A stretch of 54,101 nt of DNA. It comes from an uncultured Bacteroidota bacterium. Its GTDB lineage: Bacteria; Bacteroidota; Bacteroidia; JABEUT01. Below are positions 3,660-35,357 of the stretch, piece after piece. A model generated the notes under the pieces. It saw only the letters and a list, made by a program, of their open reading frames with translations, made no database searches and had not been told where the DNA came from. A program made the translations under genes and the position numbers. Position 1 is the stretch's first letter. The number at the start of each line of letters is the position of its first letter. The stretch covers positions 1 through 54,101 of the forward strand of contig CAIPDV010000052.1 of NCBI GenBank assembly GCA_903863935.1. Direction: 5' to 3'.

Positions 3660-6600
3660 ATGAATAGATTTTACCAATTAATTTCCCCTCTTTTAGTGGC
3701 TTGTGTAGTTGCTCCGTTTAATCTGACAAATGCACAAGGTACGGCTTCCAGTGGCAATCTTGGCAGCTTAAACGCAACTGCGGTTTGGAGTAAAAATGCT
3801 TTCGACAAGCAGGTTTTCATTGAAAACAAAGGACAGTATGATGGCAAGATTCAGACCCAGGAAAAAATTCTTTTTGCAACCCGAAGCGGAAATACATTTG
3901 CTTATTTCACAGCTAAAGGTGTTGTGTATCGGTATGATGAACTTGTTGATAAAGACGGACTAACCGTTGCCATGAAACCAAAAGGTAAAGTTGGTGATCT
4001 GGATAAAGATGGTCCACCGAAAGATATTCCGCATTTTATTTATGCACAATGGAAAAATTCAAACCCAAGTGTAACTGTAACTACCGATGAAAAACTAAGC
4101 AGCTACTATACCTTCCCTTCTCCAACTGTGAAAAACAGCTGCATTAAAACCTGGGGTTACAAGAAAATTACATACAATAATATTTATCCGGGTGTGGATG
4201 CTGAATATACCTTCCTTGAAGGCAAAGATGGATTTAAATACACTCTGTTGGTGCATCCCGGAGCTGATATGTCAGCTATTAAACTGGCCTATGAAGGTTC
4301 AACCGGAATGAGTGTAGATAATAGTGGAAACCTGGTGGTTGAATGCCCTTGGGGAACTGTGACAGACCACACCCCGGTAAGCCGTTTTGAAGATAATGGC
4401 AGCCCGGTTACAGTATCATATCAAATCGTAAACAACGAAGAAACATTTGGTTCGTCAAGTTTATATTCCGGAAGTACTCTTGTAATTGATCCATGGGCAA
4501 CCATTTGGACCAAAACCAATCCGATTGTTGCCACCAACAAAGGGGCTTATGACCTGGATTATGACTACAATGGAAACGTATATGTATATGGAGGAGATTA
4601 TCCATATCAATTAGTGAAATTGAACAGTGCAGGTACCATCCTTTGGACCTATGCCACTTCAAACTTCACCTACCAGTATTATGGCGATTTTTGTGTTGAT
4701 AAAGTAAGTGGTTCGTGCTATGCTACCGAAGGCTTCGGTAGTACAACCGGCGCAATGACCGACAAGATCAACAATGCCGGTATTATGACTTTAAGTTTTA
4801 CAGCAACTTCCAGCGAAGATGAAGAATGGAGAGTTGATTATGATCTTTGTAATCATGAAATAGTTATAGCGGGTGGTGGTACATATGACCGTTATCAGGC
4901 TGCTATCCTTGATACAAACCTCACAACTTTCACCTATGTGAACGTACTTAATTATCCGAATAGTACTTTCCAGTATGACTACCACGATATGGTAGGTATT
5001 ACCCTTGATCCTACGGGAACATATTGTTATATGGCAACTGCCTGGACCTATTCCAATACCAACCTGGATAGTGACCACATTATTAAAATGCCATTACCAA
5101 CATTGGCACCTACAACCTATAATGTTTCTGACAACTATGATTTTCAGGAATGTTCAAGTCCTGCTTATACAGGTTTTGGTGTGGGAAATACAAACGGAAT
5201 GAACTGTATGGCTTGTAACCCTGCTCACTTATATATGTATGATGGTATTACTCTGAAAGAGTTTATTGCCGCTTCAGGAGCGCACACATTATCGGCTACA
5301 ATGCCGGGAGCTACTTCATTTGATTGGGGCGGACTTGCTGTAGACTTGTGTGATAACGTATATGCGGGTAATCAAACCAATGTATTAACATATAATGTAA
5401 GCCTCACCAATACAGGAACCATAGGTCCATTCCCGGGTAATGTGTACGATGTTGTTTTGGGAGATGGCGTTCTTGGTTATGGCGACTCAACCCTTTATGT
5501 ATGTGGAGATGGTTTCGTGTCGCGCGTAGCGATCAACGCTCCTAATCCGCCAAAGATCTTAAAACAGGTAAACCGAGTTTGCAGTTGTAATTGTACTGCA
5601 AAAGCAACACTTACACTTTGCGGTAACCCGGATACTGTTGGGGTTAATTACTTATGGAGTAATGGTCAGACTACTCAGACGGCAACAGGTCTTTGCCCCG
5701 GAAATACGTATACTATTACAATTAGTATAGGCTGCGGCCAGCAATTCCAGGATACAGTAATATTGAATAATACCGGAACATTGAATGTGGTTAAAAACTC
5801 CACTCAATCTACTTGTGCAACCCCGGGAACAGCTTCTGTTACGGTTACCGGTGGAACAGCACCATATACTTATTTATGGAGTACCGGAGCAACAACCTCG
5901 AATATCGGAGGACTTGGTGCGGGTAACTACTGCGTAACTATTAATGATAACAAAGGTTGCCAGGATTCAGTTTGCTTTATTATCACCGGAGCCCCATTGC
6001 CAACAATTACTATAACCGCAACTAAGGATACAATATGTTTAGGCTCAAGCAGTAATTTACAAGCTGCCGGAGCAGTTACATATTCGTGGTTACCAACTAT
6101 TGGCTTAAGTTGCAATACGTGTTCTAACCCTGCGGCAAACCCGAATGTTACTACAACATATACTGTTACAGGAACCGACGGAAACGGATGTTCAAATAAA
6201 GACTCCATAACAATAACCGTAGAACCACAGCCTATAGTAACGGTTACTCCAAAGAACGATACCGTTTGTGCAGGAGGAAATGTAACACTGATAGCCTCAG
6301 GTGCAATAAGTTATTCATGGGGACCATCAGCAACCCTAAGCTGTTCAAATTGTGATACCACCGTTGCAACTCCGCTTACAACTACAACTTATACAGTTAC
6401 CGGAACCAGTGCATTCGGATGTATATCTACAGCAAATGCTACAGTTACAATTGCCGAGCCACCTACAATTTCAGTTTCTGCAACTAAATATTCTGTATGT
6501 ACTGGAGGTTCTGCCCAATTGCTTGCATCTGCAACCAATACTACGAGCCCATTTGTATGGCAACCGGGTAATATGACTGGACCCATTATTACAGTTACAC

Positions 6601-7481
6601 CTACAGTTACTACAACCTATACTGTTACCGCCACAAGCGGATGCGGAATAGCTACTGCAACTATAACAGTAAACGTAAACAATCTGCCGTCCCCTGCTTT
6701 CAGTGCGGATATTAACAGCGGATGCGCTCCACTTTGTTTACAATTCAGGGATAAGAGCACGAGTTCATCCGGTGGAATCAGTCAATGGAAATGGACCTTT
6801 GGAAACGGGGATTCAGCTAATAGCCGTAACCCGATCTATTGCTATCCAAAAACCGGTAATTATAATGTAACACTCACTATAGTTTCAGATAGCGGATGTA
6901 GTGCAACGTTGGATGTGCTGAAATATATTACTGTATACAATCGCCCAACGGCAGCATTCACCATGTCACCTCAGCCTACTACCATACTTCAATCAACTAT
7001 TCAATTCACCGATCAATCATCAGATGATTACGGCATAGTATATTGGATATGGAACTTTGGAGAAAAGGGGGATACGACAAGCTACCTGAGAAATCCTGCA
7101 CATACCTATTCCGACACCGGAGATTACTGCCCTAGTTTAGTAGTTATGAACCAACATGGATGTGTTGATACAGTTACCAACTGCTTGGTCATTGATCCGA
7201 TTTATACCTTATACATTCCGGATGCATTCACTCCGAATGGAAATGGTATCAATGAAGTATTTATGGCGAAAGGAAATGATATCAAAACATTTGAAATGTA
7301 CATATTCGACCGTTGGGGTATGCAGTTATTCCATAGCACCGACATTAATAATGGATGGGACGGAACTGCAAAAGCCGGAAGCTCAGTATGCCAGGAAGAT
7401 ACCTATGTTTACCTGATTAATGCTACTGACCATAAGAATATTAAACATACCTACCTGGGCAAAGTAAACCTCATCAAATAA
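3660..7481 (+). CDS. Large T9SS-secreted adhesin-like protein, copy 1
   Basis: A 1273-residue secreted protein. A signal peptide ends near residue 25 (NAQG). The N-terminal domain carries 'VFIENKGQ' (about 52-59), the mark of a domain of unknown function common in Bacteroidota surface proteins. A middle region of about 400 residues follows, with recurring aromatic-rich strands that look like a beta-propeller. Then come a Cys-rich SprB-like repeat (about 690-775), three Ig-like repeats each holding a TTTYTVT motif, and two PKD domains (about 1015-1175). The C-terminus from about 1180 ('IPDAFTPNGNGINE', 'IFDRWG') is the gliding-motility-associated sorting domain, which sends proteins through the type IX system, usually type B. 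Probable role: surface attachment or matrix. The next gene is a tandem paralog. Confidence 0.9.
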   Translation: MNRFYQLISPLLVACVVAPFNLTNAQGTASSGNLGSLNATAVWSKNAFDKQVFIENKGQYDGKIQTQEKILFATRSGNTFAYFTAKGVVYRYDELVDKDGLTVAMKPKGKVGDLDKDGPPKDIPHFIYAQWKNSNPSVTVTTDEKLSSYYTFPSPTVKNSCIKTWGYKKITYNNIYPGVDAEYTFLEGKDGFKYTLLVHPGADMSAIKLAYEGSTGMSVDNSGNLVVECPWGTVTDHTPVSRFEDNGSPVTVSYQIVNNEETFGSSSLYSGSTLVIDPWATIWTKTNPIVATNKGAYDLDYDYNGNVYVYGGDYPYQLVKLNSAGTILWTYATSNFTYQYYGDFCVDKVSGSCYATEGFGSTTGAMTDKINNAGIMTLSFTATSSEDEEWRVDYDLCNHEIVIAGGGTYDRYQAAILDTNLTTFTYVNVLNYPNSTFQYDYHDMVGITLDPTGTYCYMATAWTYSNTNLDSDHIIKMPLPTLAPTTYNVSDNYDFQECSSPAYTGFGVGNTNGMNCMACNPAHLYMYDGITLKEFIAASGAHTLSATMPGATSFDWGGLAVDLCDNVYAGNQTNVLTYNVSLTNTGTIGPFPGNVYDVVLGDGVLGYGDSTLYVCGDGFVSRVAINAPNPPKILKQVNRVCSCNCTAKATLTLCGNPDTVGVNYLWSNGQTTQTATGLCPGNTYTITISIGCGQQFQDTVILNNTGTLNVVKNSTQSTCATPGTASVTVTGGTAPYTYLWSTGATTSNIGGLGAGNYCVTINDNKGCQDSVCFIITGAPLPTITITATKDTICLGSSSNLQAAGAVTYSWLPTIGLSCNTCSNPAANPNVTTTYTVTGTDGNGCSNKDSITITVEPQPIVTVTPKNDTVCAGGNVTLIASGAISYSWGPSATLSCSNCDTTVATPLTTTTYTVTGTSAFGCISTANATVTIAEPPTISVSATKYSVCTGGSAQLLASATNTTSPFVWQPGNMTGPIITVTPTVTTTYTVTATSGCGIATATITVNVNNLPSPAFSADINSGCAPLCLQFRDKSTSSSGGISQWKWTFGNGDSANSRNPIYCYPKTGNYNVTLTIVSDSGCSATLDVLKYITVYNRPTAAFTMSPQPTTILQSTIQFTDQSSDDYGIVYWIWNFGEKGDTTSYLRNPAHTYSDTGDYCPSLVVMNQHGCVDTVTNCLVIDPIYTLYIPDAFTPNGNGINEVFMAKGNDIKTFEMYIFDRWGMQLFHSTDINNGWDGTAKAGSSVCQEDTYVYLINATDHKNIKHTYLGKVNLIK

Positions 7482-7512
7482 AGGTTAGTAACAAAATTGA
7501 TTGATAATGGCT

Positions 7513-7542
7513 AAGGCTAAGAGTGTTACTGCTCTTAGCCTT
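7513..7542 (+). terminator. Hairpin after the first large T9SS gene
   Basis: Eleven complementary bases (AAGGCTAAGAG against CTCTTAGCCTT) flank an 8-base loop, 31 bases after the stop codon. The T tract is short (TTTGTTATT), so this is a plausible but not ideal intrinsic terminator separating the two tandem genes. Confidence 0.65.
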
Positions 7543-7663
7543 TGTTATTAAATAGAACCAAAGCTTTCGTATAGTTTTAAACGGAATTGTTATCTTCGCA
7601 AATTGAATAATAATTCCATTTTTCTTTCGTTACCATAGTGAACATTACCAAAACTTTCTCTTG

Positions 7664-10600
7664 ATGAAAAGATTTTACCCGTTAAGTTTAATTACCATTT
7701 TAACCATTTCATTAACTGCGCTGCAGTCGGTAAATGGTCAGGGTACTACAGGCGGTTCCGGCACTAAAATAAATTGGACCGTAAACCCTTTCGATCCACA
7801 AGTATTTATAGAAAATAAAGGACAGTTCGACACCATGGTGAGCGGTAGTAAGGTTTTATATGGAGTAAAACAAGGATCCATGTATGCTTATTTTACACCG
7901 AATGGTATTGTTTACCGATACGATGATTATCATTATCCCAAAAGAAAGGATAAGCAAGAGCAGGAAAAGTTATTGGCAGCCAGCGGAGTAGATCCTGATA
8001 TGAATGAACTGCCTCCTGTAACTACCCATGTTCTAACTGCTACCTGGCTGGGTTCAAATCCTTCCGTTTCAATTACAGCAGGTGAGGAACAGAGCGACTA
8101 TTACACCTTTGCAAAAGGGAAGAATGATGGTTATAAGGTTAATATTTTCAAGAAAATTACATACGTTAATTTGTATCCGGGAATAGATGTTGAATTTGTT
8201 TTCCCAAAAGATAAAGGCGGATTTGAATATACGGTGATAGTTCATCCCGGTTCCAATCCTAATCTGGTGCAATTGAATTACGACGGAGATAAAAATATGC
8301 TGCTTGATAATAATGGCGATGTTCAGATAAATAGCGGCTGGGGAGAATTTACAGAACATGCGCCTGTTAGTTATTATGCCGAAGATCATAGCCCGGTTAA
8401 TAGTAAATTCAGCGTTAATAATTCAACCGAATCATTTGTTATTGATAATTTGAATGCCACAAAAACCCTGATGATCGATCCCTGGGTTACAAACTGGACC
8501 AATGTCAATCCTATTACAAGTTCTTCCGGTTACGATGGGGCTTATGATTTGGATTATGACTTCAATGGTGATGTGTGGGTATATGGCGGTTGGTCTAACT
8601 TCCAGCTGGTAAAATTTAATTCTGCAGGAACAAAACTTTGGACATATACCACGAATAATGCAGTAAATGGTGGTTATTATGGCGATTTTGCAATTGATAA
8701 ATTTGACGGTAATGCTTATTTGACACAAGGATTCAGTGGCTCCGGAGCAGTGGCTGAAAAAATTAATTACTTAGGAGTATTAACCGGTACAGCTCCACCG
8801 GTGTCCAGTCTGGAAGAAATGTGGAGAATTGTATTTGACCCTTGCCACCGATGTTTCCCTGTGGGTGGTGGCGGTTTCTCGCCTGTGCAGGATTGTATGC
8901 TCGATACAACTATGGCGGCATCGGTTCCGGTGAATGTATTAGGTGCAACTGCCGGACAGATAACACACGATATGGCCTTTGATGCTGTGGACCCTTCCGG
9001 AAATTTTGCTTATACCGCAACAGCCAAATCACTTGTTGGTGATCCTACCCACTTTGATAATTTCGTTCAGCAAATGTCATTACCAACTCTTGCCCCAACT
9101 ACCTACAATGTGTCTGATGGGTTTGCTTTTATAGAGGTAGGAAGCATTACATACGTGGGTCCGGGAGTTGGTGAAGCGAATGGTATGAATGGTATGGCTG
9201 CAAGTTTAAACTGGCTATACCTCTATAATGGAGCCACATTAAAGCAATTGTTTAAGAACACCGGTACTTTAAATTCTTCCGTTGCTGTGAGTGGCACCTC
9301 TTACGCATGGGGCGGTTTAGACGTAGATAATTGCGACAATATTTATGCAGGAAATAGTACGAATATTGATGTATATAATTCATCGCTGGCATTAACCAGC
9401 ACGATAGGACCAATGTCCGGCACTATTTATGATGTTGTTTTGAATTCCAATCAAACAACACTTTATGCCTGCGGAAAAGGATTTCTTACTTCCATAACAG
9501 TTACCCCGCCGGCACCTCCAACTATTTCGAAAGTTGTTACACCTTCCAATTGTTTCTGTAGCGGAAAGGCTAAAGCAACCCTGATGCTCTGCGGTAACCC
9601 CGATACTATTGGTGTTACATATAGGTGGAGCAACGGACAGACTACACAAACTGCAACTAACCTTTGTGCAGGAATTGATACCGTTACAATTTCATTAGGT
9701 GGTTGTAGTGCAGTAGTATATAAAGATACTGTAAGAATTACAGGTGGTGCTTCAAACTTAACAGTTACGAGAGATTCGACATCGGCAACATGCACAATAA
9801 TGGGAACCGCTTCGGTCACTATTACCGGTGGAACCATGCCATATACCTATAAATGGAGTACGGGTGCAACTACTTCAAGTATCAGTGCAGGGGCGGGATA
9901 TTACTGTGTTACTTACGCTGATAATTCAGGATGCAAGGATAGTTTATGCATTACAATTCCGGGGTCTCTGTTGCCGGCGATTACTGTAACTCCAACTCCT
10001 GACACGGTTTGTCTCGGAAACGGAGTTCCATTACAAGCAAATGGTGGTGTCACTTATTCCTGGCTGCCAACAATTGGATTAAGTTGCAATACTTGTTCTA
10101 ATCCAACAGCAAATCCAAATGTTACAACAACATATACTGTTACCGGAACGGATGCAAACGGATGTTCGAACACCGCTTCTGCTATAGTTGTAGTAGAACA
10201 GCCTCCCGTAGTCACTGTAACCCCGAAGAATGATACAATTTGTGCGGGTGGGAATGTAACCCTAATAGCATCGGGCGCATTAAAATATTCCTGGGCACCA
10301 TCTACAGGATTGAGTTGCACTAATTGTGACACTACAGTAGCCAGCCCATTAGTTACAACCAATTATACTGTTATTGGACTTGATGCCCACGGATGCAGTT
10401 CTGCAGGCAGTGCTACTGTGACTATTGCTGAACCTCCTACCATTACTGTTAAGGCCACACGGAATTCTATATGCCTGGGTTCCTCAGTGCAATTGCTTGC
10501 ATCAGCAACCAATACTACGAGTCCGTTTGTATGGCAACCGGGTAATTTGACAGGACCAATTGTAACAGTTACTCCAACGGTTACTACAACCTATACAGTG

Positions 10601-11455
10601 ACCGCTACCAGCGGCTGCGGAACAGCCACCGCAACAATAACTATTAATGTAAACAATCTTCCTTCACCTGCATTTAGTGCAGATATCAATAGCGGATGTT
10701 CGCCATTATGTATTCAGTTCAGGGATAAGAGTACCAGTTCATCGGGTGCATTAAGCCAATGGAAATGGACCTTTGGTAATGGAGATTCTGCCAATAGCCG
10801 TAACCCAATTTATTGTTATCCTAAAACAGGAGATTATGATGTTACCCTAACTATTGTTTCTGATAGCGGATGTAGTGCAACACTTAATAAGATTAAGTAC
10901 ATTACCGTGTATAGTCATCCGGTTGCAGCATTTACAATGTCTCCACAGCCTACAACAATATTGGAATCAACAATACAATTTACCGATCAGTCTACGGATA
11001 ATTACGGACTTGTTTATTGGATATGGAATTTCGGTGAGCAGGGAGACACTACCAGCTATCTGAGGAATCCTGCACATACCTATTCTGACACCGGTACATA
11101 TTGCCCAAGTTTAGTGGTGATGAACCAGCACGGATGCGTTGATACAACAATCAACTGTTTAGTTATTGATCCGATATATACTTTATATATTCCGGATGCA
11201 TTCACTCCGAATGGAAATGGAATCAATGAAATATTCATGGCCAAGGGAAATGATATCAAAACGTTTGAGATGTATATTTTCGACCGTTGGGGAATGCAGT
11301 TGTACCATGGTACCGATATTAATGACGGATGGAACGGAACAGCCAAATCAAATGGAGTGATATGCCAGGAAGATACTTATGTTTATCTTATAAATGCTAC
11401 GGACCATAAGAACATTAAACACACCTACATTGGTAAAGTGAATCTGATAAAATAA
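7664..11455 (+). CDS. Large T9SS-secreted adhesin-like protein, copy 2
   Basis: A 1263-residue tandem paralog of the preceding gene with the same order of parts: signal peptide ending near NGQG, an 'VFIENKGQ' N-terminal domain, a propeller-like middle, a Cys-rich SprB-like repeat, Ig-like repeats, two PKD domains and the gliding-motility-associated C-terminal sorting domain. The ATG at 7664 is chosen over the adjacent TTG at 7661. Similarity to copy 1 is uneven by eye: the last 500 or so residues are nearly the same, while the first 600 are clearly more diverged. A partial -7 match (TATCTTCG, 7591-7598) lies upstream. A strong terminator follows the stop. Confidence 0.9.
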   Translation: MKRFYPLSLITILTISLTALQSVNGQGTTGGSGTKINWTVNPFDPQVFIENKGQFDTMVSGSKVLYGVKQGSMYAYFTPNGIVYRYDDYHYPKRKDKQEQEKLLAASGVDPDMNELPPVTTHVLTATWLGSNPSVSITAGEEQSDYYTFAKGKNDGYKVNIFKKITYVNLYPGIDVEFVFPKDKGGFEYTVIVHPGSNPNLVQLNYDGDKNMLLDNNGDVQINSGWGEFTEHAPVSYYAEDHSPVNSKFSVNNSTESFVIDNLNATKTLMIDPWVTNWTNVNPITSSSGYDGAYDLDYDFNGDVWVYGGWSNFQLVKFNSAGTKLWTYTTNNAVNGGYYGDFAIDKFDGNAYLTQGFSGSGAVAEKINYLGVLTGTAPPVSSLEEMWRIVFDPCHRCFPVGGGGFSPVQDCMLDTTMAASVPVNVLGATAGQITHDMAFDAVDPSGNFAYTATAKSLVGDPTHFDNFVQQMSLPTLAPTTYNVSDGFAFIEVGSITYVGPGVGEANGMNGMAASLNWLYLYNGATLKQLFKNTGTLNSSVAVSGTSYAWGGLDVDNCDNIYAGNSTNIDVYNSSLALTSTIGPMSGTIYDVVLNSNQTTLYACGKGFLTSITVTPPAPPTISKVVTPSNCFCSGKAKATLMLCGNPDTIGVTYRWSNGQTTQTATNLCAGIDTVTISLGGCSAVVYKDTVRITGGASNLTVTRDSTSATCTIMGTASVTITGGTMPYTYKWSTGATTSSISAGAGYYCVTYADNSGCKDSLCITIPGSLLPAITVTPTPDTVCLGNGVPLQANGGVTYSWLPTIGLSCNTCSNPTANPNVTTTYTVTGTDANGCSNTASAIVVVEQPPVVTVTPKNDTICAGGNVTLIASGALKYSWAPSTGLSCTNCDTTVASPLVTTNYTVIGLDAHGCSSAGSATVTIAEPPTITVKATRNSICLGSSVQLLASATNTTSPFVWQPGNLTGPIVTVTPTVTTTYTVTATSGCGTATATITINVNNLPSPAFSADINSGCSPLCIQFRDKSTSSSGALSQWKWTFGNGDSANSRNPIYCYPKTGDYDVTLTIVSDSGCSATLNKIKYITVYSHPVAAFTMSPQPTTILESTIQFTDQSTDNYGLVYWIWNFGEQGDTTSYLRNPAHTYSDTGTYCPSLVVMNQHGCVDTTINCLVIDPIYTLYIPDAFTPNGNGINEIFMAKGNDIKTFEMYIFDRWGMQLYHGTDINDGWNGTAKSNGVICQEDTYVYLINATDHKNIKHTYIGKVNLIK

Positions 11456-25607: not shown

Positions 25608-26186
25608 ATGGAAACTCTTACTGCAGAAATAATGACTGAAAAAAATCCAATCCTGAAAACGATTTATGAAAGAAGGGCAGTGCGAAGTTATTTGGATAAA
25701 CCTGTTTCGAGGGAGGTTATAGAACAATTACTGGATGCCGGCAGAATGGCTCCTTCAGCAGTAAATAAACAGCCCTGGAAATTTTATGTGTTAACAAAAA
25801 AGGAAACTGTAAAGCAGTTTTCGGATGAGATTGGGAAAGTTGCTGCCAAACATTTTCATCTTTCTATTGTTTCGGGAATTTTAAAAGCTACCGATGCTGT
25901 TTTCCATGGAGCTCCGGCGGTAATTTTTATAACAGCACCTAAAGATAATGAATGGGCCTCTCTGGATGTTGGTATGTGTTCGCAAAATATAATGCTGGCA
26001 GCAAAATCGCTCGGGCTGGATACATGCCCCATTGGCATGGTTAAATTTGTGGAAGATGCCCCCGGTTTCAGCAAATTAAATATTCCGCATTCCGAGAATG
26101 TGTTACTTGCAATAATTGTTGGATACAGCAAGGATAAACCTTCTGTTCATTCAAGGAATAAAAAGAATGTGAGTTATATTGATTAA
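25608..26186 (+). CDS. Nitroreductase family protein
   Basis: A 192-residue FMN-dependent oxidoreductase of the nitroreductase fold. 'IYERRAVRSYLDKPV' near residue 18-32 contributes Arg and Ser residues that bind FMN phosphate. 'LLDAGRMAPSAVNKQPWKFYVL' (spread over about 42-63) is the signature. 'DVGMCSQNIMLAAKSLGLDTCPIG' follows, and 'LLAIIVGYSKD' lies near the end. It probably works as a homodimer in the cytoplasm with NAD(P)H; the physiological substrate cannot be told. Its stop codon overlaps the stop of the convergent desaturase gene by two bases. Confidence 0.88.
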   Translation: METLTAEIMTEKNPILKTIYERRAVRSYLDKPVSREVIEQLLDAGRMAPSAVNKQPWKFYVLTKKETVKQFSDEIGKVAAKHFHLSIVSGILKATDAVFHGAPAVIFITAPKDNEWASLDVGMCSQNIMLAAKSLGLDTCPIGMVKFVEDAPGFSKLNIPHSENVLLAIIVGYSKDKPSVHSRNKKNVSYID

Positions 26187-27310
26187 GCCCTACTCCGGCT
26201 GAGCTCTTTCAGTCTTCTTACATGCGAGCCTAATGCTTTACCAAACGAAGGTTTTAAGTTATATTCAAGCCCGAATTCACGTGCGGTTCTTTCAACTATA
26301 GGTGCAATTTTATGGTAATGCACATGGCTGATATAAGGAAACAAATGATGCTCTATCTGGAAGTTTAATCCGCCAACATACCAGTTAATAAAACGGTTGT
26401 TTCTTGCAAAGTCAGAGGTAGTGCGCAATTCATGCACTGCCCAATCGTGATGAATGATTCCTTCTCCATCAGGCATTGGTTGTTCTGCACCTTCTACCAC
26501 GTGTGCAAGTTGGAAAATAGTGCTTAAAATAAAGCCCGCAACCCAATGCATGGTAACAAAGCCAATAAGAACCTGCCACCACGTAAAATGTGTAAATATT
26601 ATCGGCAAAGCAATAAAAATTCCCAGATATAGCAATTTACCTGCCACCATTATCAAATATTCTTTGGTTACATTCAGTTTAAATTTGGTGGTAATGCCAT
26701 TTTTTTTGAATTCGGCAAGTTGTGTAAAGTCATTTACCAGCCTTGTTATCGTCATTAATCCATAAAAGAAAAATGCATGTATATACTGATAACGGTGAAT
26801 CTTCCTTACCGGATGGTTGTCCGATAATCTTAATGGCCAGCGTGGAGCAATATCTCCATCCTCGCCGTCGATATTGGTGTAGGTGTGGTGCAACACGTTG
26901 TGCTGCATTTTCCAGTTGGCAACATTACCACCCAAAAGGTACATGGAACCACCAAACAATTTATTCAGCCATTCTTTGCTTGAAAAAGAACCATGAAGAG
27001 CATCGTGCATTACACACATTCCAACACCTGCAATGCCAATACCCATTACAACAGTAAGTATCAAACCCACCCACCAGGCCATAGGAATGGTGAGCATAAG
27101 AACAAACGGAACAAGGTAAATAGCGAACATGGAAAAGGTTTGAGAAGCCAGAGTGAAATTTCCTTTTGTAGAAATTCCATTTTGTTTGAAGTAGTCATTT
27201 ACATTCTTCCGGAGGGTCGAGATAAATTGACTTTCTGTTTCAGGATTTTCCGGAACATTCTCAATAGGATTGTTATTTGATAAAGGAACAGATTTAAATC
27301 GGAGTGTCAT
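26183..27310 (-). CDS. Fatty acid desaturase, copy 1
   Basis: A 375-residue membrane-bound di-iron acyl-lipid desaturase. Three His boxes are present: 'HDALH' near residue 107, 'HNVLHH' near residue 138, and 'QIEHH' near residue 322. Helices lie between them. QIEHH with Gln in the third box is typical of acyl-lipid front-end-like desaturases, but there is no fused cytochrome b5 domain. The product introduces a double bond into membrane lipid acyl chains, consistent with homeoviscous control. A tandem paralog lies 121 bases away on the same strand, upstream in transcription. Confidence 0.9.
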   Translation of the reverse strand: MTLRFKSVPLSNNNPIENVPENPETESQFISTLRKNVNDYFKQNGISTKGNFTLASQTFSMFAIYLVPFVLMLTIPMAWWVGLILTVVMGIGIAGVGMCVMHDALHGSFSSKEWLNKLFGGSMYLLGGNVANWKMQHNVLHHTYTNIDGEDGDIAPRWPLRLSDNHPVRKIHRYQYIHAFFFYGLMTITRLVNDFTQLAEFKKNGITTKFKLNVTKEYLIMVAGKLLYLGIFIALPIIFTHFTWWQVLIGFVTMHWVAGFILSTIFQLAHVVEGAEQPMPDGEGIIHHDWAVHELRTTSDFARNNRFINWYVGGLNFQIEHHLFPYISHVHYHKIAPIVERTAREFGLEYNLKPSFGKALGSHVRRLKELSRSRA

Positions 27311-27431: not shown

Positions 27432-28547
27432 TTATATGGCTTGTGCAAACCTGTTTTCAGGCGGGGGTGTAATTCCGAGTTCTTTCAGCCTTATTACGTG
27501 AGATCTCAATGCCTTACGGAAGGTAGGTTTCAGGTTATATTCTATGCCAAATTCCTTAGCTGTTTGTTCTACAATTGGTGCAATTTTACGGTAGTGCACA
27601 TGGCTTATATTCGGAAACAGATGATGTTCTATTTGAAAGTTAAGTCCGCCTACGTACCAGTTAAGCAGTTTGTTGCGTGGTGCAAAGTTGGAAGTTGTGC
27701 GCAGTTCATGTACTGCCCAGTCGTGGTGAATTACACCTTTAGCATCCGGCAAGGGTTCTTCAGCCCCTTCTACCACATGTGCCATTTGAAATACGGTGCT
27801 CAATATAAATCCTGCCACCCAGTGCATAATGAAGAACCCGGCAACAACCTGCCACCATTTAAAGGGGGAAAAATAAATTGGTAATCCAATGATAAGTGTT
27901 AAGTAAACCAACTTATGAATTACCATTTTGGTATATTCTAAGGTAGGGTTAACATGGTATTTACGGGTAATCCCCCCAAGGTTATATTCTGCAAGCTGGG
28001 TGAAATCCTTCACAAGCTTACTTACTGTTAGCAAACCGTAAAAAAAGAACGCATGTATATACTGGTATTTGTGGATCTTTTTCAGTGGAGCGTTTTCCGA
28101 AAGCCTTAAAGGACCACGCGATGCAATATCCTCATCCATTCCGTCGATATTGGTATAAGCATGGTGGAATACATTGTGCTGCATCTTCCAGTTGAAAACA
28201 TTGCCGCCAAGTAAATAGAGTGTTCCTCCAAACATTGTATTAACCCAATCTTTATGAGAAAAAGAACCATGTGCCGCGTCGTGCATTACACACATACCAA
28301 TACCTGCAATACCAATACCCATCAGCATGGCCATTATTACGCCTTCCCACCAGTTCATAGGAAAAATGAGCAACAGTACAAAAGGAACAAGGTAAAGGGA
28401 AAGCATTACAATGGTTTGGACAACCAAGGTAAAATTACCTTTTGTAGATATTCCATTATCATGAAAATATTCATTTACTCTTTTGCGTATTGCAGGACCA
28501 AATCCATGTTCCAATTCGGTTTCACCCGTAAATTTGACATTATTCAT
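27432..28547 (-). CDS. Fatty acid desaturase, copy 2
   Basis: A 371-residue paralog of the neighbouring desaturase, with the same His boxes ('HDAAH', 'HNVFHH', 'QIEHH') and helix layout. The two proteins agree along nearly their whole length, including 'VNEYFHDNGISTKGNFTL' against 'VNDYFKQNGISTKGNFTL', and differ mainly in the N-terminal 20 residues and the extreme C-terminus. The pair looks like a tandem duplication old enough to have diverged at the DNA level. Different regiospecificity or temperature regulation is a reasonable guess only. Confidence 0.9.
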   Translation of the reverse strand: MNNVKFTGETELEHGFGPAIRKRVNEYFHDNGISTKGNFTLVVQTIVMLSLYLVPFVLLLIFPMNWWEGVIMAMLMGIGIAGIGMCVMHDAAHGSFSHKDWVNTMFGGTLYLLGGNVFNWKMQHNVFHHAYTNIDGMDEDIASRGPLRLSENAPLKKIHKYQYIHAFFFYGLLTVSKLVKDFTQLAEYNLGGITRKYHVNPTLEYTKMVIHKLVYLTLIIGLPIYFSPFKWWQVVAGFFIMHWVAGFILSTVFQMAHVVEGAEEPLPDAKGVIHHDWAVHELRTTSNFAPRNKLLNWYVGGLNFQIEHHLFPNISHVHYRKIAPIVEQTAKEFGIEYNLKPTFRKALRSHVIRLKELGITPPPENRFAQAI

Positions 28548-28687: not shown

Positions 28688-28754
28688 TGATTTATTCATA
28701 AAACGTAACCTTTCCTGAATCAAGGTCATAAAGTCCGCCAATTATTTTGATTTT
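28688..28754. repeat. Perfect 67-base direct repeat, left copy (duplicated 3' end of carbonic anhydrase gene)
   Basis: Identical to 30882-30948, which is the last 60 or so coding bases, stop codon and 4 downstream bases of the carbonic anhydrase gene. Here the same sequence lies 11 bases beyond the stop of the propeller-like gene with no remaining anhydrase frame. The two copies bound a 2127-base segment that holds just that gene. Confidence 0.9.
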
Positions 28755-28765
28755 TAATGGAAAAA

Positions 28766-30715
28766 CTATTTTATAATCTCAATCTTCTTAACAATGTTAC
28801 TGCCATCCTTCATAGTCAACTGAAGGAAATAAACGCCTTGTTTAATTTCAGCGAGATTTATTTGTTTTTTAGTTTCATTGCTTGCAATCTTGTCACTGAA
28901 TATATTTTGGCCAAGAACATCGGTAAGTTCAATAATTACCTCAGCAGGATTTGAGAGAGTAATGAATAATTCAGTTTTTGATGGATTTGGGTAAATATTA
29001 ATTTTAGGATTGAAATTCATTGAAGGCAAAGCTGAAACAACTAATTGCTTTCTGTTCGAACGAGAAGTAGCCTGATTGACACTCGCAAGTTTATCAGATT
29101 GATGTGGGGCATTGGAATATGGAATGCAATGGAGATTCCAAACTGTACTAATTATATAACGCAAATTTTTCGAAATCGGTGGAGTATTATCCGTATAAGC
29201 AAAGGTGGTATTGGAAACCGAATCAAGCCTCTGCCAATTTCCCAAGCCTGTGGAATCCCGTAAAATGAGGTAATAATTTACACTGTCACCAATATAAGCG
29301 TTCCATGAAAGATTAACGGTATTGCCAACACCAAGGCTCGATTGCAACAAGATAGTTTGATGATGGGGGGTAAGTTGGCTCACCAGGCCTGATGTGTCTA
29401 CATTGCAAATTTCATACGAAGCACTTACCGTATTAGGTTGTGAACCGGAGTCTACAAAATGTGTGTAATCATGCACTGAAACATGACCGATGTAGGTATA
29501 TGTAGACAGCACTTTCCGGTAAATACGGAAACTATCGACTAATGCAGTATCTACGCTCGTTTTATCCCAAAGAATCTCATTGAATTTGGATGCAGTATCA
29601 ACCGTTATGTAGCATATTTCACTGGAAGGCATTGGTCCGCCAATCCAGGCAGCAATATCATTACACGATGTACTTCCGGCCATATTGAATTGTCCACCTG
29701 CAATTAAAGAGGAATTATAAACAGCGAGAGACATAACTTCGCCATTTGTTCCGGAGCCTACCGGATACCATTTATTTCCATTCCATTGGGCAATATAGTT
29801 AGCAGTATCTATGCCTGCTCTGTCAAAAATACCTCCGGCATATAATTCGTCATTATAATTCACAATTGAACTTACCAATGCCCCTCCAGGCATATTTAGT
29901 CCACCTCCCGGGTTTGACCAGGTTGTACCATCCCAGACAGCAATATTAGAAGCTTGTATTCCGCCCGCAGAATCAAAATCTCCTCCGGCATAAAGTTTTC
30001 CTTGATATACGCACAAACAATATACACCGGGATAGTATGAGGTATAATTGTGTCCAACTATTCCACCTCCAACTGGAGACCAGGATGTACCGTTCCATTT
30101 GGCAATATTACTTGCACGAACGCCTCCGGCTGAATCAAAAATTCCTCCTGCGTATAGCTCCCCATTATAAACGGCAAGAGCGGCTATTTCTGTTATCAAT
30201 CCTGTATCTTTAATGCCAGCACCAATTGGCGACCAGCCCGATCCATTCCATTGAGCAATATAATTTGCTTGCTGACCACCCGCAGAATCGAATTGTCCAC
30301 CGACAATCAGATTACCATTATAAGTTATCATTGAATTTACAAAGGCATTCATTCCGGTTCCAACAGGTGACCATGAGCTACCATTCCATTTTGCAATATA
30401 TTTTGCAGGCAGCCCTCCTGCTGAATCGAAACCACCTCCGGCATATAGGTCTGAATTATATGAAGCAAGGGAAAATCCGTAATAATTTAATCCCTTTCCT
30501 ACTGAATCCCATGCTGTGCCATTCCATTGAGCAATGAAACGTGCCTTAACATTTCCTGCTTTCCTTAAAAGGCCGGTTGAATACAAATTGCCATTATAAA
30601 CGGTCATACCATAGACATCGGCAGAAACCCCTTTGCCTAATGTTGACCATGTTTGGGCCTTTGGGAGAAAGGACATTGCTATAATAACAACTGTTAAAAA
30701 TATTTTTTTGTTCAT
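28766..30715 (-). CDS. Beta-propeller-like T9SS-secreted protein
   Basis: A 649-residue secreted protein. The signal peptide is about 21 residues (ending LPKAQ). About seven to eight repeats of roughly 55 residues follow, each with 'IAQWNG..W.PVG.G', 'VYNGELYAGG.FDSAGG' and 'ANYIA', a Kelch- or propeller-like pattern. A fibronectin-like part spans about 390-550. The last 75 residues ('KINIYPNPSKTELFITL', ending KKIEIIK) form a type A T9SS sorting domain. The ATG at 30715 is chosen because the longest frame's start at 30751 lies next to a perfect -7 element (30760-30767). The gene lies between the two 67-base direct repeats. Confidence 0.87.
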   Translation of the reverse strand: MNKKIFLTVVIIAMSFLPKAQTWSTLGKGVSADVYGMTVYNGNLYSTGLLRKAGNVKARFIAQWNGTAWDSVGKGLNYYGFSLASYNSDLYAGGGFDSAGGLPAKYIAKWNGSSWSPVGTGMNAFVNSMITYNGNLIVGGQFDSAGGQQANYIAQWNGSGWSPIGAGIKDTGLITEIAALAVYNGELYAGGIFDSAGGVRASNIAKWNGTSWSPVGGGIVGHNYTSYYPGVYCLCVYQGKLYAGGDFDSAGGIQASNIAVWDGTTWSNPGGGLNMPGGALVSSIVNYNDELYAGGIFDRAGIDTANYIAQWNGNKWYPVGSGTNGEVMSLAVYNSSLIAGGQFNMAGSTSCNDIAAWIGGPMPSSEICYITVDTASKFNEILWDKTSVDTALVDSFRIYRKVLSTYTYIGHVSVHDYTHFVDSGSQPNTVSASYEICNVDTSGLVSQLTPHHQTILLQSSLGVGNTVNLSWNAYIGDSVNYYLILRDSTGLGNWQRLDSVSNTTFAYTDNTPPISKNLRYIISTVWNLHCIPYSNAPHQSDKLASVNQATSRSNRKQLVVSALPSMNFNPKINIYPNPSKTELFITLSNPAEVIIELTDVLGQNIFSDKIASNETKKQINLAEIKQGVYFLQLTMKDGSNIVKKIEIIK

Positions 30716-30759
30716 GAAATAAATAATATATATTATTGGTTTTGATTTCAATTACAGAA

Positions 30760-30767
30760 CAAAAATA
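30760..30767 (-). promoter_or_regulatory. -7 element of the propeller-like protein gene
   Basis: TATTTTTG on the minus strand matches TAnnTTTG and lies 44 bases before the ATG at 30715. It lies inside the segment bounded by the 67-base repeats, so the segment carries its own promoter. Confidence 0.55.
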
Positions 30768-30881
30768 TTAAAAAATTCAAATGAAGTATAAGCTAACCAA
30801 TTATTTTACATAAGCTTACTTTCTGTAAAACTCATTAATTCAATAACCAGGGCCTTTTCAAATAATACAGCTATAATGGTT

Positions 30882-30948
30882 TGATTTATTCATAAAACGT
30901 AACCTTTCCTGAATCAAGGTCATAAAGTCCGCCAATTATTTTGATTTT
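30882..30948. repeat. Perfect 67-base direct repeat, right copy (in carbonic anhydrase gene)
   Basis: The copy that belongs to an intact gene: it spans the final codons of the carbonic anhydrase (encoding 'GGLYDLDSGKVTFYE'), the stop and 4 more bases. Its exact twin is at 28688-28754. Confidence 0.9.
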
Positions 30949-31509
30949 ACCCGACCCTTCCATTTCGTTTAAAATGGGGCTTTGTTCTTTCACCTTTTTA
31001 ACAGTAAGCGTTACATTATGAACGGTAACATTTTCTACAAATTTCTTATTCTTAGAGTTTCTTTCTGAAGTAGTTTCTTTTTCAATTTCGATGGCTGGTT
31101 TCACCTTATTTAAAAGGGTAGTAATGTGCCCCAGTTCAATATTGTCGCAGGCACCTTCAATTGCTCCGCATTTAGTATGCCCCAGCACTACAATCAGTTT
31201 CGAGCCTGCAATTTTGCAGGCAAACTCCATGCTTCCCAGAATGTCGTCGTTTAAAATATTGCCGGCAATCCGAATGCTAAAAATATCTCCAAGGCCCTGG
31301 TCAAATATCAATTCTGCTGAGGTACGGGAATCAATACAGCTTAAAATAGCTGCAAACGGAAACTGGCCCGAGGAAGTATCATTTGCTTGTTGTAACAGGT
31401 CCCTATGCGCTTTTATGTTATTTACAAACCGCTCATTGCCTTCTTTTAAAATAGTTAGTGCCATTTCAGGCGTTAGTTCGTCTTGTGTTGCTTTGGTATG
31501 TGTTCTCAT
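30886..31509 (-). CDS. Beta-class carbonic anhydrase
   Basis: A 207-residue zinc enzyme that interconverts CO2 and bicarbonate. The zinc ligands and catalytic pair are visible: Cys and Asp-Arg in 'SCIDSRTSAE' (about 58-67) and His and Cys in 'LGHTKCGAIEGA' (about 114-125). No signal peptide is seen, so it is cytoplasmic. It is divergent from the antiporter gene, and both promoters lie in the 112-base gap (minus-strand element at 31545-31552), a neighbourhood that fits pH and bicarbonate balance. Its last 20 codons are duplicated 2.2 kb downstream. Confidence 0.93.
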   Translation of the reverse strand: MRTHTKATQDELTPEMALTILKEGNERFVNNIKAHRDLLQQANDTSSGQFPFAAILSCIDSRTSAELIFDQGLGDIFSIRIAGNILNDDILGSMEFACKIAGSKLIVVLGHTKCGAIEGACDNIELGHITTLLNKVKPAIEIEKETTSERNSKNKKFVENVTVHNVTLTVKKVKEQSPILNEMEGSGKIKIIGGLYDLDSGKVTFYE

Positions 31510-31552: not shown

Positions 31553-31608
31553 ACAATTCTTTAATACATTATATTTAGCCCAGGCCAGATTTTGTATAAG
31601 TGGTTTAG

Positions 31609-31616
31609 TATCTTTG
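31609..31616 (+). promoter_or_regulatory. -7 element of the antiporter gene
   Basis: TATCTTTG matches TAnnTTTG and ends 5 bases before the ATG at 31622. It lies downstream of the longest frame's start (31592), so it decides the start and implies a nearly leaderless transcript. Confidence 0.6.
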
Positions 31617-31621
31617 TAAAG

Positions 31622-32860
31622 ATGACAGACACAAACAATATACTTATTACCCTTAGTTCACTAGTCATCCTTTCATATCTGTTCAATATAGTTGCGAGGT
31701 ATGTAAAAATTCCGTCTGTAATATTGCTATTAGTAACCGGGGCTGCACTGAAATATTTTGGAGACAGGTTTGGAATCCATTTGAGTGGAATCCCATTTTT
31801 CCTGAATCTTTTTGGAGATATTGGCCTTATCATGATTGTTCTGGAAGGCTCGCTTGATTTGACACTTACCCGAAAAAAGATTCCGCTGATAGGGAAATCA
31901 ATGCTGTCTGCAATATTGATTTTAGCCGGTACCTGTAGCTTGATTTACCTTGTATTGCATAATTATCTTGGTATACAAATGCGAAATGCCATAATTTATT
32001 CCATTCCGTTGGCTGTTATAAGCAGTGCCATTGCTATTCCTTCAGTAAAAGAACTGAGCGAACATAAAAAAGAATTTATTGTTTATGAATCAACCTTTTC
32101 TGATATAATCGGCATCATGGTATTCAATTTTGCCATTCTAGACAACGCTCTTTCATCAGAATCATTTATGGATTTCTTTCTGAATATTATTTACATAATC
32201 CTTATCTCATTTGTCAGTTCGGCATTGCTGGTATTTATGCTGAACAGTATTACAACGCATATAAAATCGTTCCTGATCTTTGCATTGCTTATTCTTATTT
32301 ATTCTTTCGGAAAAATATTCCATTTGCCCTCTCTATTGCTAATACTTGTTTTCGGAATGATGCTGAATAACAATAAGTACTTTATTAAAGGCAAGCTGGC
32401 AAAGATTCTGCATCTTGAAAAGATGTCCACCGTAACGGCTGAACTTAAGTTGCTGACAGCGGAAACAGCTTTTCTGATCCGCACATTTTTCTTTATCCTT
32501 TTCGGTTATGCTATGAACATTAATTCACTAATCACTCCGGAAGTAGTAATTACAGGTTCTGCCATCATTGGGTGTATTCTTTTCGCGCGCTTTATTTTCC
32601 TGCTTTTTATTTCCAGAACCCATGTAATTCCGGAAATGTTTATTGCCCCAAGGGGATTGGTTACGGTTGTTTTGTTCTATGCTATTCCGGCTCACTTTAT
32701 TTCTCCTGTTTTCAACGATGGAATAATCTATTATGTAATAATCGTCTCAAGTCTTATAATGATGCTGGGGTTGATGTTTACGAAAACTAAATTCTCTGAA
32801 CCCAGGCGGATAAATGTTGGTGAAACTGCGATATCGGAAGGGCCTTCCGGACTCTCATGA
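31622..32860 (+). CDS. Cation:proton antiporter
   Basis: A 412-residue inner-membrane protein with about 11-12 helices, of the monovalent cation:proton antiporter (CPA) superfamily. 'YVKIPSVILLLVTGAALKYFG' near the N-terminus, 'GLIMIVLEGSLDLTLT' (about 71-86), 'AVISSAIAIPSV' (about 132-143) and 'IAPRGLVTVVLFYAIP' near the C-terminus follow the NhaP-like pattern. Glu and Asp residues in the middle helices ('YESTFSDIIG') are the likely ion site. There is no large cytoplasmic domain. It is divergent from carbonic anhydrase and followed by pheT. Confidence 0.85.
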   Translation: MTDTNNILITLSSLVILSYLFNIVARYVKIPSVILLLVTGAALKYFGDRFGIHLSGIPFFLNLFGDIGLIMIVLEGSLDLTLTRKKIPLIGKSMLSAILILAGTCSLIYLVLHNYLGIQMRNAIIYSIPLAVISSAIAIPSVKELSEHKKEFIVYESTFSDIIGIMVFNFAILDNALSSESFMDFFLNIIYIILISFVSSALLVFMLNSITTHIKSFLIFALLILIYSFGKIFHLPSLLLILVFGMMLNNNKYFIKGKLAKILHLEKMSTVTAELKLLTAETAFLIRTFFFILFGYAMNINSLITPEVVITGSAIIGCILFARFIFLLFISRTHVIPEMFIAPRGLVTVVLFYAIPAHFISPVFNDGIIYYVIIVSSLIMMLGLMFTKTKFSEPRRINVGETAISEGPSGLS

Positions 32861-32900
32861 ATATTTTTCCCGTTTCTTTTCTACATTCCCTTTAACAGTT

Positions 32901-32908
32901 TACTTTTG
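32901..32908 (+). promoter_or_regulatory. -7 element of pheT
   Basis: TACTTTTG matches TAnnTTTG and lies 19 bases before the ATG at 32928. It argues against the long N-terminal extension of the open frame, which would overlap the antiporter gene. Confidence 0.65.
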
Positions 32909-32927
32909 TGAACAGAATTATGCAGCA

Positions 32928-35357
32928 ATGAAGATATCTTATAACTGGTTACTAAAATACGCAAACACTAACTTGTCGCCCATTGAGGCTGGGAAACTGC
33001 TTACCGATGCCGGTTTAGAGGTAGAACATATTGAACCTTTCGAATCCTTCAAAGGAGGGTTGAAAGGTCTGGTTGTCGGCGAAGTATTAACTTGTGTAAA
33101 ACATCCGAATGCGGATAAACTTTCATTAACTACAGTAAATGTTGCAGGAGAAAGGATATTGAATATTGTTTGCGGTGCACCCAATGTTGCGGCTGGCCAA
33201 AAGGTAATTGTAGCTGTTGAAGGAGCTGTGTTATATCCGTTGGAAGGAGAGCCTTTCACCATTAAGAAAAGTAAGATAAGGGGAGAAGTATCAGAAGGAA
33301 TGATATGTGCTGAAGATGAAATTGGTCTTGGAGTTTCTCATGCCGGGGTTATGGTTTTACCTCCTGAAACAAAGGTAGGTTTGCCGGCTGCGGAGTACTT
33401 TCAAATTTATTCTGATTCCGTTATTGAAATAGGGGTTACCCCGAATAGGGCCGATGCTTTGTCGCATATAGGTGTGGCAAGAGATTTAGCGGCTGCTATC
33501 AATATTCATTCTATGAAAGGGTCGCAACCGGCAATAACTCTTTCGAAACCGGAACTAAAAGAAATTGAAAACAAAAAGAACGGTACAATAACTATTACAG
33601 TTGAAAATTCGGAAGCCTGTAAGCGATATACGGGGGCGGAAATAAGAGGTATTAAAGTGAAGGAATCACCACAGTGGCTTAAGAATTATCTTTCTGCAAT
33701 AGGGTTAAGACCGATCAATAATATTGTAGACATTACCAATTTTGTAATGCTCGAAACCGGACAGCCACTTCACGCATTTGATGCTGATAAAATAAAAGGA
33801 AATAGGGTAGTGGTACGAAAGGCAAAACCATCCGAGACTATTATAACATTGGATGGTATTGAAAGGAAATTAAAAGAACGAGACCTTTTGATTTGCAATG
33901 AAAGTGAACCCATGTGCATTGCCGGAGTATATGGAGGTAAGGATTCAGGAGTTACTGAAAACACCCAAAACCTCTTTCTAGAAAGTGCATGTTTCGACTC
34001 TGTGCATATTCGTAAAACTGCACGAACCCATGGTTTGCATACAGATGCGTCTTTCCGTTTTGAAAGGGCTACTGACCCTAACATTACTATGTTTGCATTG
34101 CAAAGAGCCATTAATTTAATGCAAGAGGAAAACCCGGAAATCGTTGTTTCAAGTTTACAAGATGTTTATCCTGAAAAAGTAGAAAATAAGCAATTTGAAT
34201 TCTCCCTTTCCTATGCTGAAAAATTGGCCGGACATTATATTCCAGCGGCAGATATTATGCTAATATTGGAAGCTGTCGGCATTAAAGTTTCAGATACAGA
34301 AAAGGAAACATGGCAACTGTCTATTCCAACCTATAGGCTCGATATTACCTGTGCTGCCGATATTGTTGAGGAGATTTTGAGGTTTTATGGGTATAACAAT
34401 ATCCCTATCTTGGGAAGGCTGAATATCCCTTTGGTTCATGCTGGTAAAAACCAATCAGACGAATTAAAAGATAAAATGGGGAATTTCATGAGTGCGTCTG
34501 GCTTTGCAGAGGTTATGAATACTTCCTTAACCTCCTCAAAATTTGAAGAATCACCGGAAGCTGTTAAAATAGCTAACCCCCTTAGCGTTGACCTTGACAT
34601 ATTAAGAGGTTCGCTTTTATTTAATGGGCTTACAAATATTGCTCTCAACCAGAATAACAAACATACCGATTTAAAATTGTTTGAATTTGGACGGAGTTAT
34701 CACAAAACCGCCACAGGAAAGTTCAAGGAAAATGAACATCTGTGCCTATGGATAAGCGGAAATAAATTACCTCTTTCGTGGAATACGAAAGAGCAGACAT
34801 CAGACTTTTACCAGTTGAAATCGTATGTAAAAGCCATAGTGGAAAAGATCACCGGGGTTTCATCTCCTGTTGAGAGTGTCATAGAAAATGATGCTATGCT
34901 TTCCGGCTGTATTACACTATCAGTTAAAAACAATGAGATTGTTAAATTTGGGCAGGTAAATGAAAACCTCCTAAAAAAAATGGATATAAAAGGAGAAGTG
35001 TTTTTTGCTGACTTTAATTGGAAGACCCTTCTTCAGCAAATCCCGAAAGGATTGGAGATGAAAGAAATTGTAAAGTTTCCGCAAGTTTCCAGAGATCTGG
35101 CACTTGTAATAGATAAGTCTGTAAAATTTTATACCCTTAAGGAAATGGCCTATAAAACTGAAAAGGAACTATTGAAAGAGGTTTCTGTGTTTGATGTTTA
35201 TGAAGGTAAGGGTATAGAGAATGATAAAAAATCGTATGCGCTGCGATTCATTCTTCAAAGTGAAACCAAAACACTAAGCGATAAAGAAATTGAAAAGGTA
35301 ATGGAAAAGCTCACCAAAACATTTATGGAACAAGCGGGAGCCACCATCAGGAGTTGA
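32928..35357 (+). CDS. pheT: Phenylalanyl-tRNA synthetase beta subunit
   Basis: PheT, 809 residues, the beta subunit of the alpha2-beta2 enzyme that charges tRNA(Phe). It begins MKISYNWLLKY, as most PheT do. The EMAP-like tRNA-binding domain (about 40-155) follows, then the B3/B4 editing domain ('GYKxA'-type region with 'AFDADKIKG'), the B5 domain, the catalytic-like core and the C-terminal FDX-ACB domain ('KFPQVSRDLALVIDK' onward). The open frame extends 38 codons further upstream into the antiporter gene, but the promoter at 32901-32908 and family alignment place the start here. The pheS partner is not in the window. Confidence 0.96.
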   Translation: MKISYNWLLKYANTNLSPIEAGKLLTDAGLEVEHIEPFESFKGGLKGLVVGEVLTCVKHPNADKLSLTTVNVAGERILNIVCGAPNVAAGQKVIVAVEGAVLYPLEGEPFTIKKSKIRGEVSEGMICAEDEIGLGVSHAGVMVLPPETKVGLPAAEYFQIYSDSVIEIGVTPNRADALSHIGVARDLAAAINIHSMKGSQPAITLSKPELKEIENKKNGTITITVENSEACKRYTGAEIRGIKVKESPQWLKNYLSAIGLRPINNIVDITNFVMLETGQPLHAFDADKIKGNRVVVRKAKPSETIITLDGIERKLKERDLLICNESEPMCIAGVYGGKDSGVTENTQNLFLESACFDSVHIRKTARTHGLHTDASFRFERATDPNITMFALQRAINLMQEENPEIVVSSLQDVYPEKVENKQFEFSLSYAEKLAGHYIPAADIMLILEAVGIKVSDTEKETWQLSIPTYRLDITCAADIVEEILRFYGYNNIPILGRLNIPLVHAGKNQSDELKDKMGNFMSASGFAEVMNTSLTSSKFEESPEAVKIANPLSVDLDILRGSLLFNGLTNIALNQNNKHTDLKLFEFGRSYHKTATGKFKENEHLCLWISGNKLPLSWNTKEQTSDFYQLKSYVKAIVEKITGVSSPVESVIENDAMLSGCITLSVKNNEIVKFGQVNENLLKKMDIKGEVFFADFNWKTLLQQIPKGLEMKEIVKFPQVSRDLALVIDKSVKFYTLKEMAYKTEKELLKEVSVFDVYEGKGIENDKKSYALRFILQSETKTLSDKEIEKVMEKLTKTFMEQAGATIRS

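Follow-up and report, generated by a model that had tools for sequence, protein, structure and literature searches.

In this study, we found that the carbonic anhydrase (CA) gene of an uncultured Bacteroidota bacterium is followed by a gene for a secreted propeller protein and, beyond it, by an exact second copy of the CA 3' end. Our analysis points to recombination, and not to a dedicated mobile element, as the means by which genes are added at the termini of resident genes. For the CA locus, we consider the chances slightly better than even that the propeller gene came in with DNA of a very close relative through homology-anchored recombination, with an illegitimate joint at the opposite end.

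Results

An exact repeat of the CA 3' end flanks a propeller gene

The window, meaning the whole 54,101-nt stretch that was analysed, is contig C52 of a 3.76-Mb assembly of 126 contigs, and its relatives are Bacteroidota MAGs. The original prediction was that the last 20 codons, the stop codon and 4 following bases of the CA gene are duplicated perfectly over 67 bases, and this exact repeat was confirmed (67/67). The positions of both copies are shown in Table 1. They form a direct repeat with 100% identity and a spacing of 2194 nt, and the chance expectation for such a repeat, calculated from base composition, was about 1e-30. The left copy has the propeller gene on one side and a desaturase gene on the other, and it matches residues 188-207 of the CA protein at 100%. 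The CA protein itself showed 87-88% amino-acid identity to its counterparts in two congeners. The predicted anatomy also held, in that the host gene is intact, its tail is displaced, and the secreted propeller protein is encoded by the sole gene in the insert, with no recombinase, integrase or other mobility gene beside it.

Read from the left copy, the insert begins with 11 nt, continues with the propeller gene and closes with the 166 nt that lie upstream of it. A foreign base composition of the insert was rejected, as its GC content was 38.6% and its tetranucleotide distance lay only at the 65th percentile among 674 genome chunks. An imperfect repeat within the upstream region of the insert was weak and was dropped as evidence, since 11 of 500 shuffles equalled it. 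The 67-mer occurs exactly twice in the 3.76-Mb assembly. It was absent from five congeners with a located CA locus, and a 46-nt part of it gave no match in viral contigs. The hexamer AAATCA is found at the start (offset 1) and at the end of the 67-mer, an arrangement shared by just 0.15-0.22% of random 67-nt intervals of the genome.

The T9SS sorting domain of the propeller protein scored above the family cut-off (PF18962, 48.8 bits against 27). The closest homologues of the protein are about 50% identical over the first 360 residues only, and the family is large, with several paralogues per congener. The genome encodes at least 150 T9SS tails as well as SprA. Two adjacent large T9SS-type paralogues (CHU_C, PKD, DUF7948), 60% identical to each other, were also observed in the window at 3660-11455. 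Elsewhere, an apparently circular contig of 4192 nt with a 119-nt terminal overlap was binned with the genome (L259, G000:C92, 1-4311), and by reading, its ORFs resemble microvirus capsid and replication proteins. CRISPR-like arrays were seen at L209 26-148, L234 4748-5098 and L237 14033-14320, with 46-47-nt repeats spaced 76 nt and 36-37-nt repeats spaced about 62 nt.

Table 1. Positions of the features at the CA locus and at the analogous sites (window coordinates unless another locus is given)
Feature	Position	Strand	Description
Second desaturase gene	26183-27310		70% identical to the first desaturase (27432..28547)
Fatty-acid desaturase gene	27432..28547	-	PF00487, E=7e-34; adjoins the detached CA tail
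Left repeat copy	28688..28754	-	Detached CA tail (remnant), 11 nt past the propeller stop codon
DNA between repeats	28755..30881	.	2127 nt, native base composition
Propeller gene	28766..30715	-	649 aa; Rax2-like propeller and C-terminal Por_Secre_tail (T9SS sorting domain), Pfam
Right repeat copy	30882..30948	-	Joined to the CA gene; covers its last 20 codons (KIKIIGGLYDLDSGKVTFYE), its stop codon and 4 nt beyond
CA gene	30886..31509	-	207 aa, intact; Pro_CA PF00484, E=2e-39; source of the duplicated 3' end
Conserved flank, CA 5' side	31592..35357	+	Antiporter-like gene; pheT, which by resemblance encodes the beta chain of phenylalanyl-tRNA synthetase
yggS-like gene	L192 9259-9897		
yggS-like case	L192 (G000:C22) 9259-10612		Copy of the last 23 codons lies beyond a lone lipoprotein-like gene
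Cyclase case	L239 (G000:C72) 7343-8559		Copy of the first 22 codons on the upstream side of a ParE-toxin/antitoxin-like pair
CA case in an unrelated MAG	L103 10001-13313		CA, di-haem protein gene, decayed CA tail, purC

Soundness of the assembly and age of the event

Because the window belongs to a 126-contig genome assembly, we considered whether an assembly artefact made the repeat pair, and we judge this to be very improbable. Contig ends in the assembly have exact overlaps of 119 and 141 nt, and it looks as if the assembler was run with k up to 141. The k-mers were thus apparently longer than the 67-nt repeat, so the assembly graph should resolve it, with both junctions spanned. The native composition of the insert argues against an artefact as well, and the diverged pairs of gene ends at the analogous sites described below could not arise in that way.

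The congeners differ from the CA tail at 10-21 of 63 corresponding bases. Since the two repeat copies are identical at 67 of 67 positions, including a tail that has ceased to be coding, the event at the CA locus is recent (within about 4.4% neutral divergence), and any donor would have been very close. This supports the earlier suggestion of a recent recombination-based insertion. An old duplication common to relatives was excluded, as no congener shows the arrangement. The identity of the copies also means that the resident copy, and the involvement of transfer, are indistinguishable from the CA pair itself.

Congeners carry other DNA behind the CA gene

On the 5' side of CA, the flank with the antiporter-like gene and pheT is syntenic in congeners G005 and G007. 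The DNA downstream of the CA stop codon is different from the window in every congener, and a second CA tail, the propeller gene and the desaturases were found behind CA in none of them. Across nine related CA loci, similarity of the DNA extends no further than the stop codon. The repeat ends there too, which fits a repeat that ends where donor and recipient diverge. The detached CA tail is complete and is followed by an intact desaturase gene, and no deletion of recipient DNA is recognisable. It had been proposed that an empty site be sought in related genomes. At CA none was found, all congeners holding other DNA behind the gene, but such a site was present at the analogous yggS-like locus in G007.

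Ends of other genes are displaced at analogous sites

We surveyed 2057 genes for copies of a gene terminus alone by comparing 28-residue tails with the 4.5 kb downstream. The survey covered about 1.5 Mb of the genome (41%) and 1.3 Mb of other loci, so that per-genome counts are lower bounds, and tail-only cases were counted after exclusion of paralogues and repeat proteins. The control with reversed tails gave no score of 50 or more among the 2057 genes. Clear tail-only cases were the CA gene of the window, a yggS-like gene in the same genome and the CA gene of an unrelated MAG. A mirror survey of gene heads yielded one clear case flanking other genes, at a cyclase gene. When the search was run without a length limit, no further high-identity case with a longer remnant was found. 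Repeats at L258 and L036 were set aside, as they are located between adjacent paralogous genes or gene tails.

The tail of the yggS-like gene recurs 638 nt downstream with 83% amino-acid identity. The intervening gene encodes 202 aa, is lipoprotein-like by its N-terminus and has no Pfam match; beyond the displaced tail come another gene, encoded on the opposite strand, and a tRNA-Gln. The tRNA-Gln leader DNA begins 12 nt past the yggS-like stop in G007, compared to 1457 nt in this genome, and G007 therefore lacks the insert at this locus. Before its stop, the displaced tail reads GSAIFNE, the same as in G007, and the attached tail reads GSAIFA. Because the displaced tail keeps the C-terminus of G007, it is probably the resident copy, and the attached tail probably arrived with the insert.

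This bears on the reverse polarity at CA, in which the CA-propeller order is ancestral and the detached tail with the desaturase pair is incoming. As neither the propeller gene nor the desaturases stand behind CA in any congener, the direction is unsettled at the CA locus, but the displaced tail at the yggS-like gene is probably resident, judging by its C-terminus, and we regard the reverse order of events as quite unlikely.

At the cyclase gene, the copy of the head lies about 0.5 kb upstream of the gene, and the stretch between the two heads encodes a ParE toxin and a 59-aa antitoxin-like protein that has no Pfam match. The yggS-like copies have 11 differences in 66 nt, of which 8 are at codon position 3; for the cyclase copies, this applies to 7 of 11 differences. 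When both pairs were pooled, codon position 3 held 15 of 22 differences (p about 9e-4 against one third). This bias suggests that the copies of the two diverged pairs separated as coding DNA in different lineages, and the incoming DNA thus probably had its own gene end. One terminus of each diverged pair probably came from another lineage.

Such coding-type divergence at two sites of the genome is unlike the expectation for a duplication made in place during repair or replication, whereby template switching or a staggered break would have copied the propeller gene in and duplicated the 67-nt target. There is also no close source of the propeller gene within the genome, the best match having 48% identity. 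For the CA locus alone, in-place template switching is nevertheless a serious rival, given that the copies are identical, that the composition of the insert is native, and that AAATCA at both ends of the repeat could be the microhomology used for switching. Overall, we rate an in-place origin as possible but unlikely.

In the unrelated MAG, a gene of the di-haem oxidoreductase family is located behind CA, followed by an in-frame decayed CA tail (LYDL-stop-TGGV-stop-FYE) before purC. The decayed tail scored 53, compared to at most 37 for the other CA loci tested, and among the CA loci on 71 genome contigs, a credible tail remnant was kept in this one only. It overlaps the start region of purC and may resemble a ribosome-binding site with a start codon by chance. 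CA and purC are also close together in L040, with other genes between them.

The remnants have similar lengths

The remnants at the three sites of the genome measured 67, about 70 and about 56-66 nt, and all remnants were of similar length, about 17-23 codons. Near-constant remnants at three sites of one genome, together with the restored target gene, would suit a cargo-only mobile cassette, that is, a circle of one or two genes and about 20 target codons that integrates site-specifically in trans and restores its target. Seven tyrosine-recombinase matches, six of them above the family cut-off, were found in the genome, but tyrosine recombinases were also present in all 14 of the 14 control genomes. 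The insert ends have no obvious common motif, and the targets, the gene ends used (3' and 5') and the cargo are different each time. No attC-like hairpin was found in the 67-mer, which folded no better than shuffled sequence (z 0.31 and 0.68 for the two strands) and does not recur elsewhere in the genome. We therefore consider a cassette improbable. The original prediction of a cargo-only unit moved in trans is unsupported so far, as neither a further copy of the 67-mer nor an att-like fold nor a recombinase in the insert was found. Decidedly improbable, in our estimate, is its extension to a class of minimal units in the lineage, each holding one or two genes, that use either gene end, re-supply about 20 codons, depend on a recombinase in trans and carry a T9SS protein, a lipoprotein-like protein or a ParE toxin-antitoxin-like pair.

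Discussion

In the explanation that we favour, the donor would be a very close relative carrying the propeller gene behind its CA gene. Homologous recombination would have taken place within the 3' part of CA, and an illegitimate joint would have linked the non-homologous end to a point some 20 codons within the resident gene. The joint may have been made by an HFIR-like route, or the fragment may have been ligated into a circle that entered by a single crossover. The outcome would be an intact CA gene, with a 67-nt copy of its tail moved beyond the new gene. The direction of this event is presumed, its polarity at CA being taken from the yggS-like case. Once present, the repeat could allow the precise loss of the propeller gene by recombination between the copies. 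Homology at a gene end combined with an illegitimate joint would explain the coding-diverged copies, would restore the host gene and needs no integrase. The lack of a recombinase in the insert, a 67-mer without a third copy in the genome, and a ComEC-type competence protein encoded in the genome count in favour of this explanation. The search for a donor found no genome that has this propeller gene behind CA, and the best homologues had at most about 50% identity over partial length. Ku was looked for in the genome and was not found; therefore, ligation would have to proceed by a different route.

Site-specific integrative elements (ICEs, IMEs and GInts) insert in gene 3' ends. The CA insert is like them in that the 3' end of the gene is restored and the old end is left across the insert as an att-like direct repeat (67/67 nt, CA intact). 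Unlike them, it is only 2.1 kb long and encodes no integrase or other mobility gene, the propeller/Por_Secre_tail gene being all that it holds. In addition, the related cyclase case lies at a 5' end, and this symmetric case argues against an integrase specific for 3' ends. The attC hairpin of an integron cassette was likewise lacking. In the literature on integrase-less single-gene inserts, we found nothing direct.

HFIR and the single-crossover insertion of circularised linear DNA resemble the CA case in that the insert has no recombinase, and their foreign DNA is anchored by homology at one end, as is presumed for the CA insert (PMC3240628). Single-crossover products are also flanked by a short duplication of the homologous stretch. 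Such duplications were 109-950 bp in E. coli, compared to 67 nt at CA (PMC3240628). These 67 nt of the gene end are common to both sides of the insert, and matching homology in the donor is presumed. In Vibrio T6SS clusters with orphan immunity genes, a new module similarly stands behind a conserved part with the old 3' end of the effector shifted downstream, and the displaced 3' ends have been attributed to HFIR (PMC5361080). The CA locus differs from these clusters in that a housekeeping-type gene serves as host and remains intact, and one gene for a secreted protein, by itself, forms the cargo. Besides the negative searches for a donor genome, an empty CA site and Ku, two observations stand against our favoured explanation. 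A typical HFIR event removes about 1 kb of recipient DNA (PMC3240628), whereas no deletion is recognisable at CA, and the similar remnant lengths are not predicted by random illegitimate joints. The near-constant length speaks most strongly for something more specific.

When genes are gained at the termini of resident genes, the remnant of about 20 codons left behind is a readable scar. Such a scar dates the event, can reveal the resident copy and is countable in assembled genomes. Should the same constancy of remnant length be seen in further genomes, this would indicate a defined mechanism by which single genes for surface proteins or toxin-antitoxin systems are added independently of mobile elements.
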